From contig NZ_CP134876.1 in assembly GCF_032108445.1 (NCBI RefSeq), forward strand, positions 2,108,001 through 2,172,000: a stretch of 64,000 nt of DNA, written 5' to 3'. Positions 2,692 to 35,039 of this stretch are shown one piece after another. A program made the translations under genes and the position numbers. The notes beneath the pieces are model-generated. The model was not told where the DNA came from. It worked only from the letters and a program-made list of their open reading frames with translations, and ran no database searches. Origin of the DNA: Micromonospora halotolerans. GTDB lineage: Bacteria > Actinomycetota > Actinomycetes > Mycobacteriales > Micromonosporaceae. How positions within the stretch are numbered: the first letter of the stretch is position 1; the number at the start of each line of letters is the position of its first letter.

Positions 2692-2970
2692 TCAGTTCTC
2701 CCGGCGCTCGTCCGTGCGCTCGCCCTGGTCGTCCCCGGCCAGGGCGGAGCGCAGCCGCTCCTTCTCCGCGCGGCGCCGCTCCGCCGCCTCGGACATCTCG
2801 CCGGCCATCTCGTCCCGCCAGCCGCGGAGCAGGAAGAACGACAGCGCCGCGGAGAAGACCAGCGCCAGCATCAGCCGCAGGAACATGTTCATCTCGACGA
2901 ACCAGAGAGCCGCCAGCACGCCGACGAACAGCCCGATCCGGCCCAGCGTGTACTTGACCGCCGCGCTCAC
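2692..2970 (-). CDS. DUF4229 small membrane protein
   Basis: A 92-residue protein with two hydrophobic helices (about 9-28 and 29-50) and a charged, helical C-terminal tail rich in Glu and Arg. The pattern matches the actinobacterial DUF4229 family, often found beside menaquinone genes. Its GTG start overlaps by 4 nt (GTGA) the stop of a 20-codon leader ORF inside a repeat element, so its translation is probably coupled to that leader. It sits downstream of mqnE in the same direction. No biochemical function is known. Confidence 0.75.
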   Translation of the reverse strand: MSAAVKYTLGRIGLFVGVLAALWFVEMNMFLRLMLALVFSAALSFFLLRGWRDEMAGEMSEAAERRRAEKERLRSALAGDDQGERTDERREN

Positions 2971-3029
2971 TGCGACGCCTCAGTTCGCGACTGCGGGGCT
3001 CGCAAACCCGGCTCACTCCTCGCGCTCAC
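2967..3029 (-). CDS. Repeat-encoded 20-aa leader peptide (copy 1)
   Basis: A 21-codon ORF, GTG to TGA, encoding VSARSEPGLRAPQSRTEASQ. It has a good Shine-Dalgarno (AAGGA, 9-nt spacer), and its TGA overlaps the GTG start of the DUF4229 gene. The first 46 nt are repeated with one mismatch at 25087-25132, where an equivalent ORF again overlaps the start of the next gene. Whether the peptide is made is inference; the coupled geometry and its recurrence argue that it is not chance. Confidence 0.5.
   Translation of the reverse strand: MSARSEPGLRAPQSRTEASQ
2984..3029 (-). repeat. 46-bp dispersed repeat, copy 1
   Basis: Matches 25087-25132 at 45 of 46 positions. Both copies lie between two leftward genes in the same orientation relative to transcription, and each forms the 5' part of a small ORF coupled to the downstream gene. 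Confidence 0.9.
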
Positions 3030-3055
3030 GCCCGCACTTCCTTCTCTCTCACGCC

Positions 3056-3484
3056 TCAGCCCGTCCGCCGGGCCAGCCAGTGCACGCCATGAAACCAGAC
3101 CACCGCGTAGACCACCGTGAACACCGCCGCGGCCAGCGCGCCGGAGAACAGTGCCGGCAGCCCGGCGGCGAGGCCGGCCGCCAGCAGACCGGCGAAGACG
3201 CCGAGCGCGATCCCGGCCAGCGCCGCGAGCACCCTGGACGCGCCGAACTCCCAGGCCCGGAAGTCGTCCCAGAACAGCCAGAGCGGCAGGATCACCGCCA
3301 GCCAGCCGTTGGTCCGCCCGAACCGGCCCGCGCCCATGGTGGCGAAGGCCCACTCGAAGAGCACCAGCGCCAGCACCCCGATGACCAGCCCGGCGAGACT
3401 CACCCCGAGCAGGTCACCCAGGGTGAGGATGCGCCCCTCGGCGTCCCGCCGGGGGAAGGTGCGCTGCTGCTCCTCGGTGCTCAT
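3056..3484 (-). CDS. Multi-helix membrane protein of unknown function
   Basis: A 142-residue protein with a polar N-terminus (~25 residues) and about four hydrophobic segments (near 27-48, 58-72, 84-104 and 110-132). I do not recognise the family. It begins 10 bp after the stop of mqnE and has no separate Shine-Dalgarno, so it is probably translated by reinitiation. It precedes the repeat-encoded leader and the DUF4229 gene. The position suggests a role linked to menaquinone or the membrane, but nothing in the sequence proves it. Confidence 0.65.
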   Translation of the reverse strand: MSTEEQQRTFPRRDAEGRILTLGDLLGVSLAGLVIGVLALVLFEWAFATMGAGRFGRTNGWLAVILPLWLFWDDFRAWEFGASRVLAALAGIALGVFAGLLAAGLAAGLPALFSGALAAAVFTVVYAVVWFHGVHWLARRTG

Positions 3485-23851: not shown

Positions 23852-24423
23852 CAGCGGGACCCGGACGGGGGCTGCTCGGCCGCGATCCGCTCGACGACGG
23901 GCTGGAGCTCGTCCCGGGTGATCGCCCGGCGGATCACCACGGCGACCCGGCCGTCGCGGTCCAGGACGACGGTCGCCGGGGTGGTGTTGGGCGGGATGTC
24001 GAAGTCGAGCGCCTGCCGGCTGGCCGGGTCGAAGAGGCTCGGGTAGGTGACCCGGCCCTCCTCGAAGGCGGCCGCCTTGTCCTTGCTGTCCTGCACGTTG
24101 ATGCCGAGGAAGGTGACGCCGGACGCCTTGGTGGCCTGGTGCACGGCCTCCAGGTCGTCGGCCTCCGCCCGGCAGGGCGCGCACCAGGATCCCCAGAAGT
24201 TGACGACGACCACCTGGCCGCGGGCCTCGGCGATGTCGTAGCTGCCGCCGGTGAGCAGCTCGCCGCTCACCTTCGGGGTCTTCGACCGCTGGTCGGGGGC
24301 GCAGGTGATGGTGACGCCGTCGCTCGCGCAGCGGCTCTCCTCGCTGCCGGAGGAGCAGCCGACCAGCGCCGTCCCGGCGGTGACGGCGGCGAGCAGGGCG
24401 GCGACGAGCCTCCGGCTGGGCAT
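23851..24423 (-). CDS. resA: ResA-like thioredoxin lipoprotein
   Basis: A 190-residue exported protein with a lipobox LVGCSS (lipidated Cys near residue 23) and a thioredoxin fold with active site WCAPC in VVVNFWGSWCAPCRAE. It keeps apocytochrome haem-binding cysteines reduced, receiving electrons from CcdA. PNTTPATVVLD supplies the cis-Pro loop. Two further cysteines (residues ~32-41) precede the domain. It overlaps the histidine phosphatase gene by 4 nt. Confidence 0.92.
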   Translation of the reverse strand: MPSRRLVAALLAAVTAGTALVGCSSGSEESRCASDGVTITCAPDQRSKTPKVSGELLTGGSYDIAEARGQVVVVNFWGSWCAPCRAEADDLEAVHQATKASGVTFLGINVQDSKDKAAAFEEGRVTYPSLFDPASRQALDFDIPPNTTPATVVLDRDGRVAVVIRRAITRDELQPVVERIAAEQPPSGSR

Positions 24424-25070
24424 CAGGCTCCCTTGGCCGTCCGGGCGGTCGGCGAGATCGAGACCAGGTGGGCCGCGGGCTCGGAGTAGCCGATGCCGAC
24501 GATCTTGGCACCGTCGAAGTGGAACGAGGTGAGGCTGGCCAGGCCGCACTGCCGCTTGCGCGGGTCGTGCCAGAGCCGCTTGCGCTCGACGTAGCGGCGC
24601 AGGGTCCAGATGGGCAGCTGGTGGGAGACGAGCACGGCCTCGCGCCCCTCGGCGGCGATCCGGGCGGCGTGCAGCGCGCCGAACATCCGCTCGGCGATCA
24701 CCCGGTAGGCCTCGCCCCAGGACGGGGTGACCGGGTCGCGCAGCACCCACCAGTTGCGCGGGTCGCGGAAGGAGCCGTCGCCCGGGGACACCTTCTTGCC
24801 CTCGAACCAGTTCGCGCTCTCGATCAGCCGCTCGTCCACCCCGACCGGCAGCCCGAACTGGGCGGCGATCGGCTCGGCGGTCTGCTGGGCGCGTTCGAGC
24901 GGGCTGGCCACCACGTGCACCACGGTGCGCTCGGCGAGCGCCTGGGCGGCCGCCTTGGCCATCTGGACGCCCAGCTCGGAGAGGCGGAACCCGGGCAGCC
25001 GCCCGTAGAGGATGCCGTCCGGGTTGTACACCTCGCCGTGCCGCAGCACGTGGACCACCGTCTCGCTCAC
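24423..25070 (-). CDS. Histidine phosphatase (phosphoglycerate-mutase-like)
   Basis: A 215-residue member of the branch-1 histidine phosphatase superfamily, with catalytic RHGE at ~10-13, a second conserved segment VVASPLERAQQTAEP and the catalytic His in VLVSHQLPIW. It starts at GTG (VSETVVHVLRHGE), which overlaps the stop of the repeat-encoded leader peptide (GTGA). Genes of this type sit next to hemL and resA in many actinobacteria, but the physiological substrate is unknown. Confidence 0.88.
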   Translation of the reverse strand: MSETVVHVLRHGEVYNPDGILYGRLPGFRLSELGVQMAKAAAQALAERTVVHVVASPLERAQQTAEPIAAQFGLPVGVDERLIESANWFEGKKVSPGDGSFRDPRNWWVLRDPVTPSWGEAYRVIAERMFGALHAARIAAEGREAVLVSHQLPIWTLRRYVERKRLWHDPRKRQCGLASLTSFHFDGAKIVGIGYSEPAAHLVSISPTARTAKGA

Positions 25071-25132
25071 GCCTGAGCCCCCTTCGTTCGCGGCTGCGGG
25101 GCTCGCAAACCCGGCTCACTCCTCGCGCTCAC
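25067..25132 (-). CDS. Repeat-encoded 21-aa leader peptide (copy 2)
   Basis: A 22-codon ORF from GTG to TGA beginning VSARSEPGLRAPQPRTK. It starts 2 nt after the hemL TAA with GGGGGG 5 nt before it, and its TGA overlaps the GTG of the histidine phosphatase gene. It is the second copy of the element at 2967-3029; the sequence after the shared 46 nt differs, but the reading frame and terminal GTGA overlap are kept. Confidence 0.5.
   Translation of the reverse strand: MSARSEPGLRAPQPRTKGAQA
25087..25132 (-). repeat. 46-bp dispersed repeat, copy 2
   Basis: 45 of 46 bases match 2984-3029. It is placed between two leftward co-directional genes, in the same orientation as copy 1. Confidence 0.9.
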
Positions 25133-25134
25133 CG

Positions 25135-26472
25135 TTACCCCCCGTGTCCCGCCGCTGCCGCCGCCGCTGCCGCCGCCGGCAGGGCCGCGGCGATCTGCTC
25201 CAGGGCGGCGTCGTCGATCGCCGCCGACACGAACCACGACTCGAACGCGCTCGGCGGCAGGTAGACGCCGGCGGCGAGCATGGCGTGGAAGAACGCCTTG
25301 AACGCGGGCACCTGCTGGGTGCGGGCGCTGTCGTAGTCGGTCACGTCGGCGTCGGTGAAGAAGATCGAGAACATGTTGCCCGCGTACGACAGGCGGTGCG
25401 GGACCCCGGCGGCGGCCAGCGCCTCGGCGGCGAGCTTGCCCACGGCGGCGGCCGTCTCGTCGAGGCGGCGGTAGAGCGCGTCGTCGGCCAGCCGCAGCGT
25501 GGCCAGGCCGGCGGCGCACGCGAGGGGGTTACCGGAGAGGGTGCCGGCCTGGTAGACCGGGCCGGCCGGGGCCAGCCTCGCCATGATCTCGGTGCGTCCG
25601 CCGAACGCCGCGGCGGGCAGGCCGCCGCCCATGACCTTCCCGTACGTCCACAGGTCGGCGTCGGACGGGTCGAGGCCGTGCCAGCCGGCGCGGGAGACCC
25701 GGAACCCGGTCATCACCTCGTCGACGATGAGCAGCGCGCCGTGCGCGTGGGCGATCCGGGCGAGCTGCTGGTTGAAGTCGCCGCGCGGGGCGACCACGCC
25801 CATGTTGCCGGCGGCCGCCTCGGTGATGATGGCCGCGATGTGCGGGCCCTCGGCGGCGAAGGCCTCCTCGACCGCGCGCAGGTCGTTGTACGGCAGCACG
25901 ATCGTGTCGCCGGCGGCCGCCCCGGTGACGCCGGGCGAGTCGGGCAGGCCGAGGGTGGCCACGCCCGAGCCGGCGGCGGCGAGCAGCGCGTCGGAGTGGC
26001 CGTGGTAGCAGCCGGAGAACTTGATGATCTTGGCCCGGCCGGTGAAGCCGCGGGCCAGCCGGATCGCCGACATGGTCGCCTCGGTGCCCGAGTTGACCAG
26101 GCGGACCTGCTCCACCGGGGTCCGCGTGACGATCTCCGCGGCCAGCTCGACCTCGCCCGGGGTGGGGGTGCCGAAGCTGGTGCCGAGCGCGGCGGCCTCG
26201 CGCAGCGCCTCGACCACGGCCGGGTGGGCGTGACCGAGGATCAGCGGGCCCCAGGAGCAGACCAGGTCGACGTAGCGGCGACCGTCGGCGTCGAAGAGCC
26301 AGGGACCCTCCCCCCGGACCATGAAGCGCGGGGTGCCGCCGACGGCACGGAACGCGCGTACGGGTGAGTTGACCCCGCCGGGCACGATGGCCTTGGCGCG
26401 GTCGAACAGGGCCTCGGAGGCCGGTGCGTCGGCCGGGTAGCGGCCGGATCCGGCGGGAAACGTATCGGTCAC
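25135..26472 (-). CDS. hemL: Glutamate-1-semialdehyde 2,1-aminomutase
   Basis: A 445-residue PLP-dependent aminomutase that makes 5-aminolevulinate in the C5 haem pathway. Family hallmarks are [10 protein letters not shown] at the N-terminus, [24 protein letters not shown], the Asp motif [10 protein letters not shown] and the PLP lysine in [10 protein letters not shown]. It is the first gene of the leftward haem/cytochrome c assembly cluster, so haem supply and haem attachment are co-located. It is divergent from the STAS gene across 150 bp. Confidence 0.96.

Positions 26473-30690: not shown

Positions 30691-35039
<4,349 letters not shown>

Follow-up and report, generated by a model that had tools for sequence, protein, structure and literature searches.

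A candidate family of mobile-behaving hairpin repeats placed before start codons in Micromonosporaceae

The short repeat that occurs twice in the window (the whole 64,000-nt stretch of Micromonospora halotolerans DNA analysed here) is probably, with a likelihood of roughly 60%, one form of a family of intercistronic RNA hairpins in Micromonosporaceae that behave as mobile, carry their own Shine-Dalgarno sequence and leave translational coupling intact. One unit consists of an imperfect hairpin of 42 to 47 nt followed by a Shine-Dalgarno tail, and it lies directly before a start codon, mostly RTGA. Its position, orientation, frame closure, polymorphism and hairpin were established from the sequences and from orthologous loci with and without the element. 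The earlier note on this DNA had suggested a mobile translational-coupling cassette; the mobile behavior and the keeping of frame and overlap held up, whereas the conserved unit proved to be the hairpin with its Shine-Dalgarno sequence and not a leader peptide.

The two copies in the window and their relatives

Both copies lie on the minus strand, are 47 nt long and differ by one mismatch; the earlier note had recognized the near-identical pair but put its length at 46 bp. As it had described, each copy opens a GTG ORF whose TGA overlaps the GTG of the next co-directional gene, and frame and GTGA overlap are retained at both copies despite the differing 3' flanks. Pfam also confirmed DUF4229 and a histidine phosphatase as the downstream genes. 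The features are as follows.

2983..3029, minus strand: type I hairpin unit, copy 1, 47 nt (exact match)
2967..3029, minus strand: copy 1 mini-ORF, 20 codons plus TGA, running through the hairpin and encoding VSARSEPGLRAPQSRTEASQ (sequence and ORF)
2971..2982, minus strand: copy 1 tail, 12 nt, with Shine-Dalgarno-like GAGG (missing from the empty site)
2967..2970, minus strand: GTGA, start of the DUF4229 gene overlapping the stop of the copy 1 mini-ORF (sequence)
2692..2970, minus strand: gene downstream of copy 1, DUF4229, PF14012 (Pfam)
3056..3484, minus strand: gene upstream of copy 1, 142 aa, stop TGA at 3056-3058 (ORF)
25086..25132, minus strand: type I hairpin unit, copy 2, one mismatch to copy 1 (sequence match)
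25067..25132, minus strand: copy 2 mini-ORF, 21 codons plus TGA, encoding VSARSEPGLRAPQPRTKGAQA (read by eye; array L010)
25071..25085, minus strand: copy 2 tail, 15 nt, Shine-Dalgarno-like GAAGGGGG (sequence)
25067..25070, minus strand: GTGA, start of the phosphatase gene overlapping the stop of the copy 2 mini-ORF (sequence)
24423..25070, minus strand: gene downstream of copy 2, histidine phosphatase, His_Phos_1, PF00300 (Pfam)
25135..26472, minus strand: gene upstream of copy 2, class III aminotransferase, Aminotran_3, PF00202, stop TAA at 25135-25137 (Pfam)

The hairpin of copy 1 has the arms GTGAGC...GCGAAC and the apical loop CGGGTTT. A covariance model, R1, recovered both copies on identical bases, with 78 bits for copy 1 (locus L366) and 74 bits for copy 2 (locus L367). 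No Pfam match was found for the 142-aa gene upstream of copy 1, and the aminotransferase gene upstream of copy 2 is probably hemL, a name that we infer. The upstream stops precede the element by 26 nt (copy 1) and 2 nt (copy 2), whereas elsewhere the stop usually lies in the element's GTGA. Rfam gave no match at gathering score in the window, with a single chance-level match at 2850-3150. The window holds other repeats as well, namely seven head-to-tail copies of a 276-nt unit at 32658-34613 (72 to 81% identity to the reference copy) and two neighboring paralogous stretches, 12-311 and 1382-1681, with 83% identity over 300 nt.

The repeat is indeed dispersed, at a frequency far above chance: a slightly degenerate pattern, with up to 3 mismatches allowed, picks out 34 copies in the window's own genome (31 are perfect matches), as opposed to none for the reversed pattern in the same scan. 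These 34 units form 21 arrays, which does not agree with a peptide confined to two unrelated operons. Twenty of the arrays close on a start codon (for L001 confirmed by orthologues, and for L024 on TTG), and the remaining one, L014, forms an in-frame fusion with the gene after it. A search of other Micromonosporaceae, as the earlier note had proposed, found a shorter pattern in 116 of the 300 genomes sampled from the family, 105 from the window's genus (its own genome included) and 11 from four other genera. Among the matches listed (80 loci, of at least 120 stretches), the carriers were Micromonospora, Plantactinospora, Paractinoplanes toevensis and Micromonosporaceae bacterium KJ-029. A longer pattern was not found in 16 genomes from other families of the order. 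One plasmid of Micromonospora terminaliae carries the pattern; the exact pattern was not found in viral contigs, nor the 47-mer in phage records. We also searched 2.1 Mb of collected loci for split halves around a larger autonomous element. No halves with an insert were seen; what came up were sister types, truncations and degenerate copies. The open-licence PMC papers searched gave no account of such a repeat or hairpin element.

Position, reading frame and turnover

We analyzed 166 arrays (168 distinct arrays minus 2 partial duplicates), many of which are orthologous, so that the counts are not independent. Read from the sequences, the upstream gene usually ends within the GTGA that belongs to the element: in 119 of the 153 arrays with a callable upstream frame, its stop codon is the TGA of that GTGA. 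For comparison, in a 400-kb portion of the same genome, 54 of the 222 ends of co-directional genes had an RTGA overlap with the next frame. At the other end, the reading frame that crosses the hairpin mostly terminates on the start codon of the next gene. The element ORF stops there in 124 of the 159 arrays with a callable downstream frame, in line with the earlier expectation that copies end at a gene start. Relative to the element's GTG, the downstream frame was 2 (overlap) in 130 arrays, 0 (in-frame fusion) in 24 and 1 in five; the last calls are doubtful because all five have a GTGA at +60 in which the element ORF ends. Insertion in frame within an ORF is not the rule, as most arrays begin at an upstream stop and only those 24 are in the frame of the downstream gene. 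The periods within arrays were 59 (48 times), 60 (38), 62 (11), 57 (4), 58 (1) and 61 (1). Given these periods and frames, length varies almost only where a run-on in the wrong frame is avoided. None of 332 cores with at most 6 mismatches contained an in-frame stop. Orientation and position are nearly always one and the same, in sense and directly before the start codon. An independent annotation of plasmid NZ_CP045310 has one CDS ending in the element's GTGA and the next starting 59 nt past the element start. The downstream proteins appear unrelated across arrays when read by eye, with Pfam assignments covering the genes in the window.

The comparison of orthologous loci suggested in the earlier note revealed precise full and empty alleles, the difference usually being 59 bp directly before the downstream start codon. 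At the site of copy 1, the orthologue L272 lacks exactly 59 bp, and L270, L271 and L273 are full; 27 of 30 loci are empty at this site (L272 included). At the phosphatase site of copy 2, 9 of 30 loci are full. A livF site is occupied in the window's own genome and vacant in another genome of its species. In such pairs the start codon almost always marks the end of the insert; the exceptions are L014, which is fused, and some livF alleles with the start a few bases further on. On trees built by a quick method from the flanking gene and 600 nt, at least 8 changes are needed for 8 carriers of 30 at the livF site and at least 7 for 9 of 30 at the phosphatase site. The presence of the element therefore hardly follows the gene tree.

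Within the species, we compared 17 arrays of the window's own genome that had loci with the genome G298. Seven were matched to G298 arrays by their flanks, five of which differ in unit number, and two more are common to both genomes on reading the loci (window copy 1, L271; and L019, L320). L004 and L262 lie at one junction in a different arrangement in the two genomes. Another seven (L010, L011, L012, L014, L016, L017 and L026) have no element at the best-matching G298 locus, which for L012 is only 81% identical. In the reverse direction, 7 of 13 G298-only arrays were checked in the window's genome and all seven sites were empty; one of them, L253, is a single unit, judged by an uninterrupted match. 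The element thus behaves as mobile, as the earlier note had supposed, with full and empty sites that are polymorphic within one species. As a side observation, a 30-nt internally deleted unit (GTGAGCGCSGCCGCGAAC plus tail) adjoins the full unit at L004:1560-1589 and in the left flank of L262; it lies on opposite sides of the full unit in the two same-species genomes, and the downstream gene there encodes at least 455 aa.

RTGA flanks the insert on both sides and is single in most empty sites, although some of these have TTGA or another start. In a check for target-site duplication, only the base preceding RTGA matched strongly beyond RTGA itself. The tails differ between sites, are mostly 12 to 15 nt long and are mostly not copied target sequence, so a simple copy-and-paste does not explain them. 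A long target-site duplication, with the Shine-Dalgarno sequence copied from the target, was ruled out, since the tails in full and empty pairs are mostly new sequence. Spacers are common to the units within most arrays, which suggests that arrays may arise by local tandem duplication.

One alternative for the spread is switching of the replication template at short homologies, namely the GTGAG at the start and the GGAGG in the Shine-Dalgarno sequence, together with local slippage and inter-strain recombination; no dedicated enzyme would be needed. The shared spacers would fit this account, as would the base before RTGA, which matched between the left flank and the first spacer in 78% of 60 multi-unit arrays (34% when shuffled) and in 59% of 82 single-unit sites (28% when shuffled); the next bases match weakly, and orthologous sites are included in these counts. 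However, the tails are mostly not target sequence, and a microhomology of 4 to 5 bp would hit many other sites too. We consider this account unlikely.

The hairpin, its sister forms and the encoded peptides

Judged from the alignments, the conserved feature is the imperfect hairpin and not the peptide. The hairpin was first indicated by double changes among type I cores. Its outer pairs are 1-47, 2-46, 5-43, 6-42, 7-41, 8-39 and 9-37, and its inner pairs are 11-35, 12-34, 14-32, 15-31, 18-28 and 19-27, with putative tandem G.A steps at G3/A45, A4/G44 and at G16/A30, A17/G29. Positions 20-26 form the apical loop, of which positions 23-25 are hypervariable. With respect to terminal inverted repeats, the hairpin constitutes an inverted repeat that includes G.A steps, and the tail lies outside it.

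In an alignment of 38 sequences of three types, which favored variants and contains many orthologues that are not independent, 96.3% of the cells pair and 7 of the 13 pairs changed on both sides (0 of 500 shuffles), as opposed to 18 to 52% paired cells for slid versions of the structure. RNAalifold, given this alignment without a structure, returned 10 pairs, all among the 13. Because the alignment favored variants, we repeated the compensation count on all 123 distinct type I cores. Seven of the 13 structure pairs were compensated, compared with 10 of 294 other complementary column pairs (Fisher p 6e-7), and 13 compensated cells were found against a shuffled maximum of 6. One-sided transitions in the same table produced 46 G-U and 18 A-C on the sense strand. 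The sense strand is therefore favored, either as RNA or as sense single-stranded DNA.

Folding of a single 47-mer was not significantly better than that of its own shuffles (z -0.79). The modeled energy for opening the region from the Shine-Dalgarno sequence to the start was 8.1 kcal/mol with the real core, 9.2 with shuffled cores and 9.6 with the core removed. This effect is modest: 52 of 69 single-unit sites lay below the shuffled mean, and because the core is almost identical across these sites, the p-value makes the effect look stronger than it is. The element may function at the RNA level, for which such modeling gives weak support.

R1 gave 16 matches at 14 places in 1.2 Mb of the window's own genome; 10 of these places lead into a downstream start, one of the ten (L383) as an extension of the upstream gene. 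The sister forms keep both arms. Type II is 42 nt long with the loop CTTG, and type III is 45 nt long with a GCGAAG-type loop and one 51-nt variant. They use the 3' arm in another frame, giving SELASPAVAN and SAAERSPAVAN, respectively, as opposed to SEPGLRAPQSR in type I. After the hairpin, 5 of 13 type II and 6 of 7 type III units (11 of 20) close on the downstream start, and 9 of these 11 have a 14-nt tail, so that the total length fits the frame again. Altogether, 34 units were examined, including four of type I. Of these 34, 17 close on the downstream start, L389 doing so only through a start within the hairpin, and in 16 the upstream stop lies at the GTGA. The remaining units are fusions to the upstream gene (L383, L398, L072), arrays in frame, degenerate copies, or units outside such junctions; L386 has a stop inside the hairpin. 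Sister families in intercistronic position in the same genome include L382, L384, L381 and L365 (type II) and L391, L392, L394 and L399 (type III).

Further variants were observed. A tandem array with a period of 58 (L396:581-796) has the stem foot GCTGAC/GGCAGC, with a different but mostly complementary sequence. In L150, L112 and L174, loop positions 23-25 vary between the units of one array and the internal spacers are identical, which suggests that the loop evolves more quickly than the tail. Gene conversion was thought unlikely as the cause of core constancy, as the central loop varies within some arrays. The first codons of the downstream genes at L034, L062, L129 and L131 resemble a decayed element (GTGAGCGCGAGGAGCGAG...), and these N-termini are possibly derived from the repeat.

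The element might instead be a regulatory leader peptide or attenuator, in which the downstream gene is controlled in response to a condition sensed through the nascent peptide or its codons. The frame is open in all 332 cores tested, which would suit such a role. In its favor, too, synonymous changes were more frequent per possible change (23/30) than non-synonymous ones (28/87), although half of the synonymous changes fall at one position. However, across 135 units, 6 of 14 third positions are invariant and just two show variation in more than three units, and the downstream genes look unrelated by eye. In types II and III, the shared 3' arm is translated in a different frame into other peptides (VSARSELASPAVAN, VSARSAAERSPAVAN), and on this ground the reading was rejected. 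The functional leader peptide proposed in the earlier note is accordingly most improbable, with the conservation, seen as compensatory changes, residing in the hairpin.

Mode of spread, known systems and significance

For the coupling-preserving hairpin family, which is our preferred reading, we propose the following mechanism. The element's start GTGA lies in the hairpin foot. A ribosome ending the upstream gene would open this foot, reinitiate on the embedded GTG, translate through the hairpin and hand over at the next RTGA, so that coupling would survive the insertion. When folded, the hairpin would pair with itself and leave the downstream Shine-Dalgarno sequence free. A bolder version is tentative, and we would put it at clearly below even odds: a new class of mobile element that recognizes translation start sites, in which a hairpin RNA cassette with its own Shine-Dalgarno sequence is inserted directly before start codons, possibly via a single-stranded or RNA intermediate. 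Such a cassette would be translated and would re-create the stop/start coupling at either end, and its exchangeable apical loops would define subfamilies.

A selfish or neutral palindromic repeat, whose hairpin serves mobility only through a single-stranded DNA or RNA intermediate and whose frame and overlap are kept by the purging of other insertions, is a serious possibility, although somewhat short of an even chance. It would account for the loose relation to gene trees, for the downstream proteins that appear unrelated by eye and for the polymorphism in both directions between the two same-species genomes (7 of 17 and 7 of 7 sites empty). However, compensated pairs are seen in individual resident copies, and orientation and position are nearly always the same. 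Heavily decayed copies are also few, as 206 of 339 units are perfect and 329 have at most 3 mismatches, figures partly biased by the fetching of loci.

REP or palindromic units and the RAYT-linked REPINs are short, dispersed, imperfect palindromes that are often intercistronic, occur many times per genome and can be in tandem, and the element resembles them in all these respects. In contrast, it lies in sense directly before start codons, with its own Shine-Dalgarno sequence and an open frame closing on the next start. A derivation from REP/RAYT or an IS200/IS605-derived MITE, with RTGA as the cleavage tetranucleotide next to the hairpin, would explain a hairpin with a fixed tetranucleotide and RTGA on both sides of the insert. 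The hallmark of REP/RAYT, however, is a GTAG/GGAG-type tetranucleotide outside the hairpin foot, whereas the constant RTGA lies within the stem. Moreover, the palindrome was found in many dispersed copies but its expected partner was not: the Y1 transposase profile (Y1_Tnp, PF01797; TnpA-REP) had no match in the element's genome, and the same search was positive in 5 of 14 control genomes, an argument limited by the possibility that a transposase was lost or acts from another location. We regard this origin as quite unlikely.

Rickettsia palindromic elements (RPEs) lie in frame inside ORFs. Like them, the element is a mobile-behaving palindrome compatible with translation, but it is placed between genes with its own mini-ORF, and only a few relatives (L383, L398) extend the upstream protein. 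ERIC, Correia and other bacterial MITEs are transcribed hairpins of tens to about 150 nt without a transposase, and the element resembles them as a short, transposase-free hairpin; we know of no start-codon rule or coupling-preserving frame for any of them. The TAACTGA direct repeats of Beggiatoaceae and cyanobacteria are dispersed and in tandem, lie in one genome mostly just upstream of the starts of genes without common function, and have been given a suggested post-transcriptional role (PMC4679880). The element shares with them dispersal, tandem arrangement and a place before the start codons of genes that look unrelated, but these repeats are heptamers, whereas the element is a 47-nt hairpin with its own Shine-Dalgarno sequence and a stop/start overlap.

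For annotation of Micromonospora genomes, the element may lead to spurious small proteins and wrong N-termini. It also raises the question of what carries a 59-bp hairpin unit to start codons. The natural polymorphic full and empty alleles before ordinary genes offer a test bed for coupling, reinitiation and the insulation of ribosome-binding sites by hairpins in GC-rich bacteria. Insertions into operons normally break translational coupling, whereas this element appears to be built or filtered to keep it.
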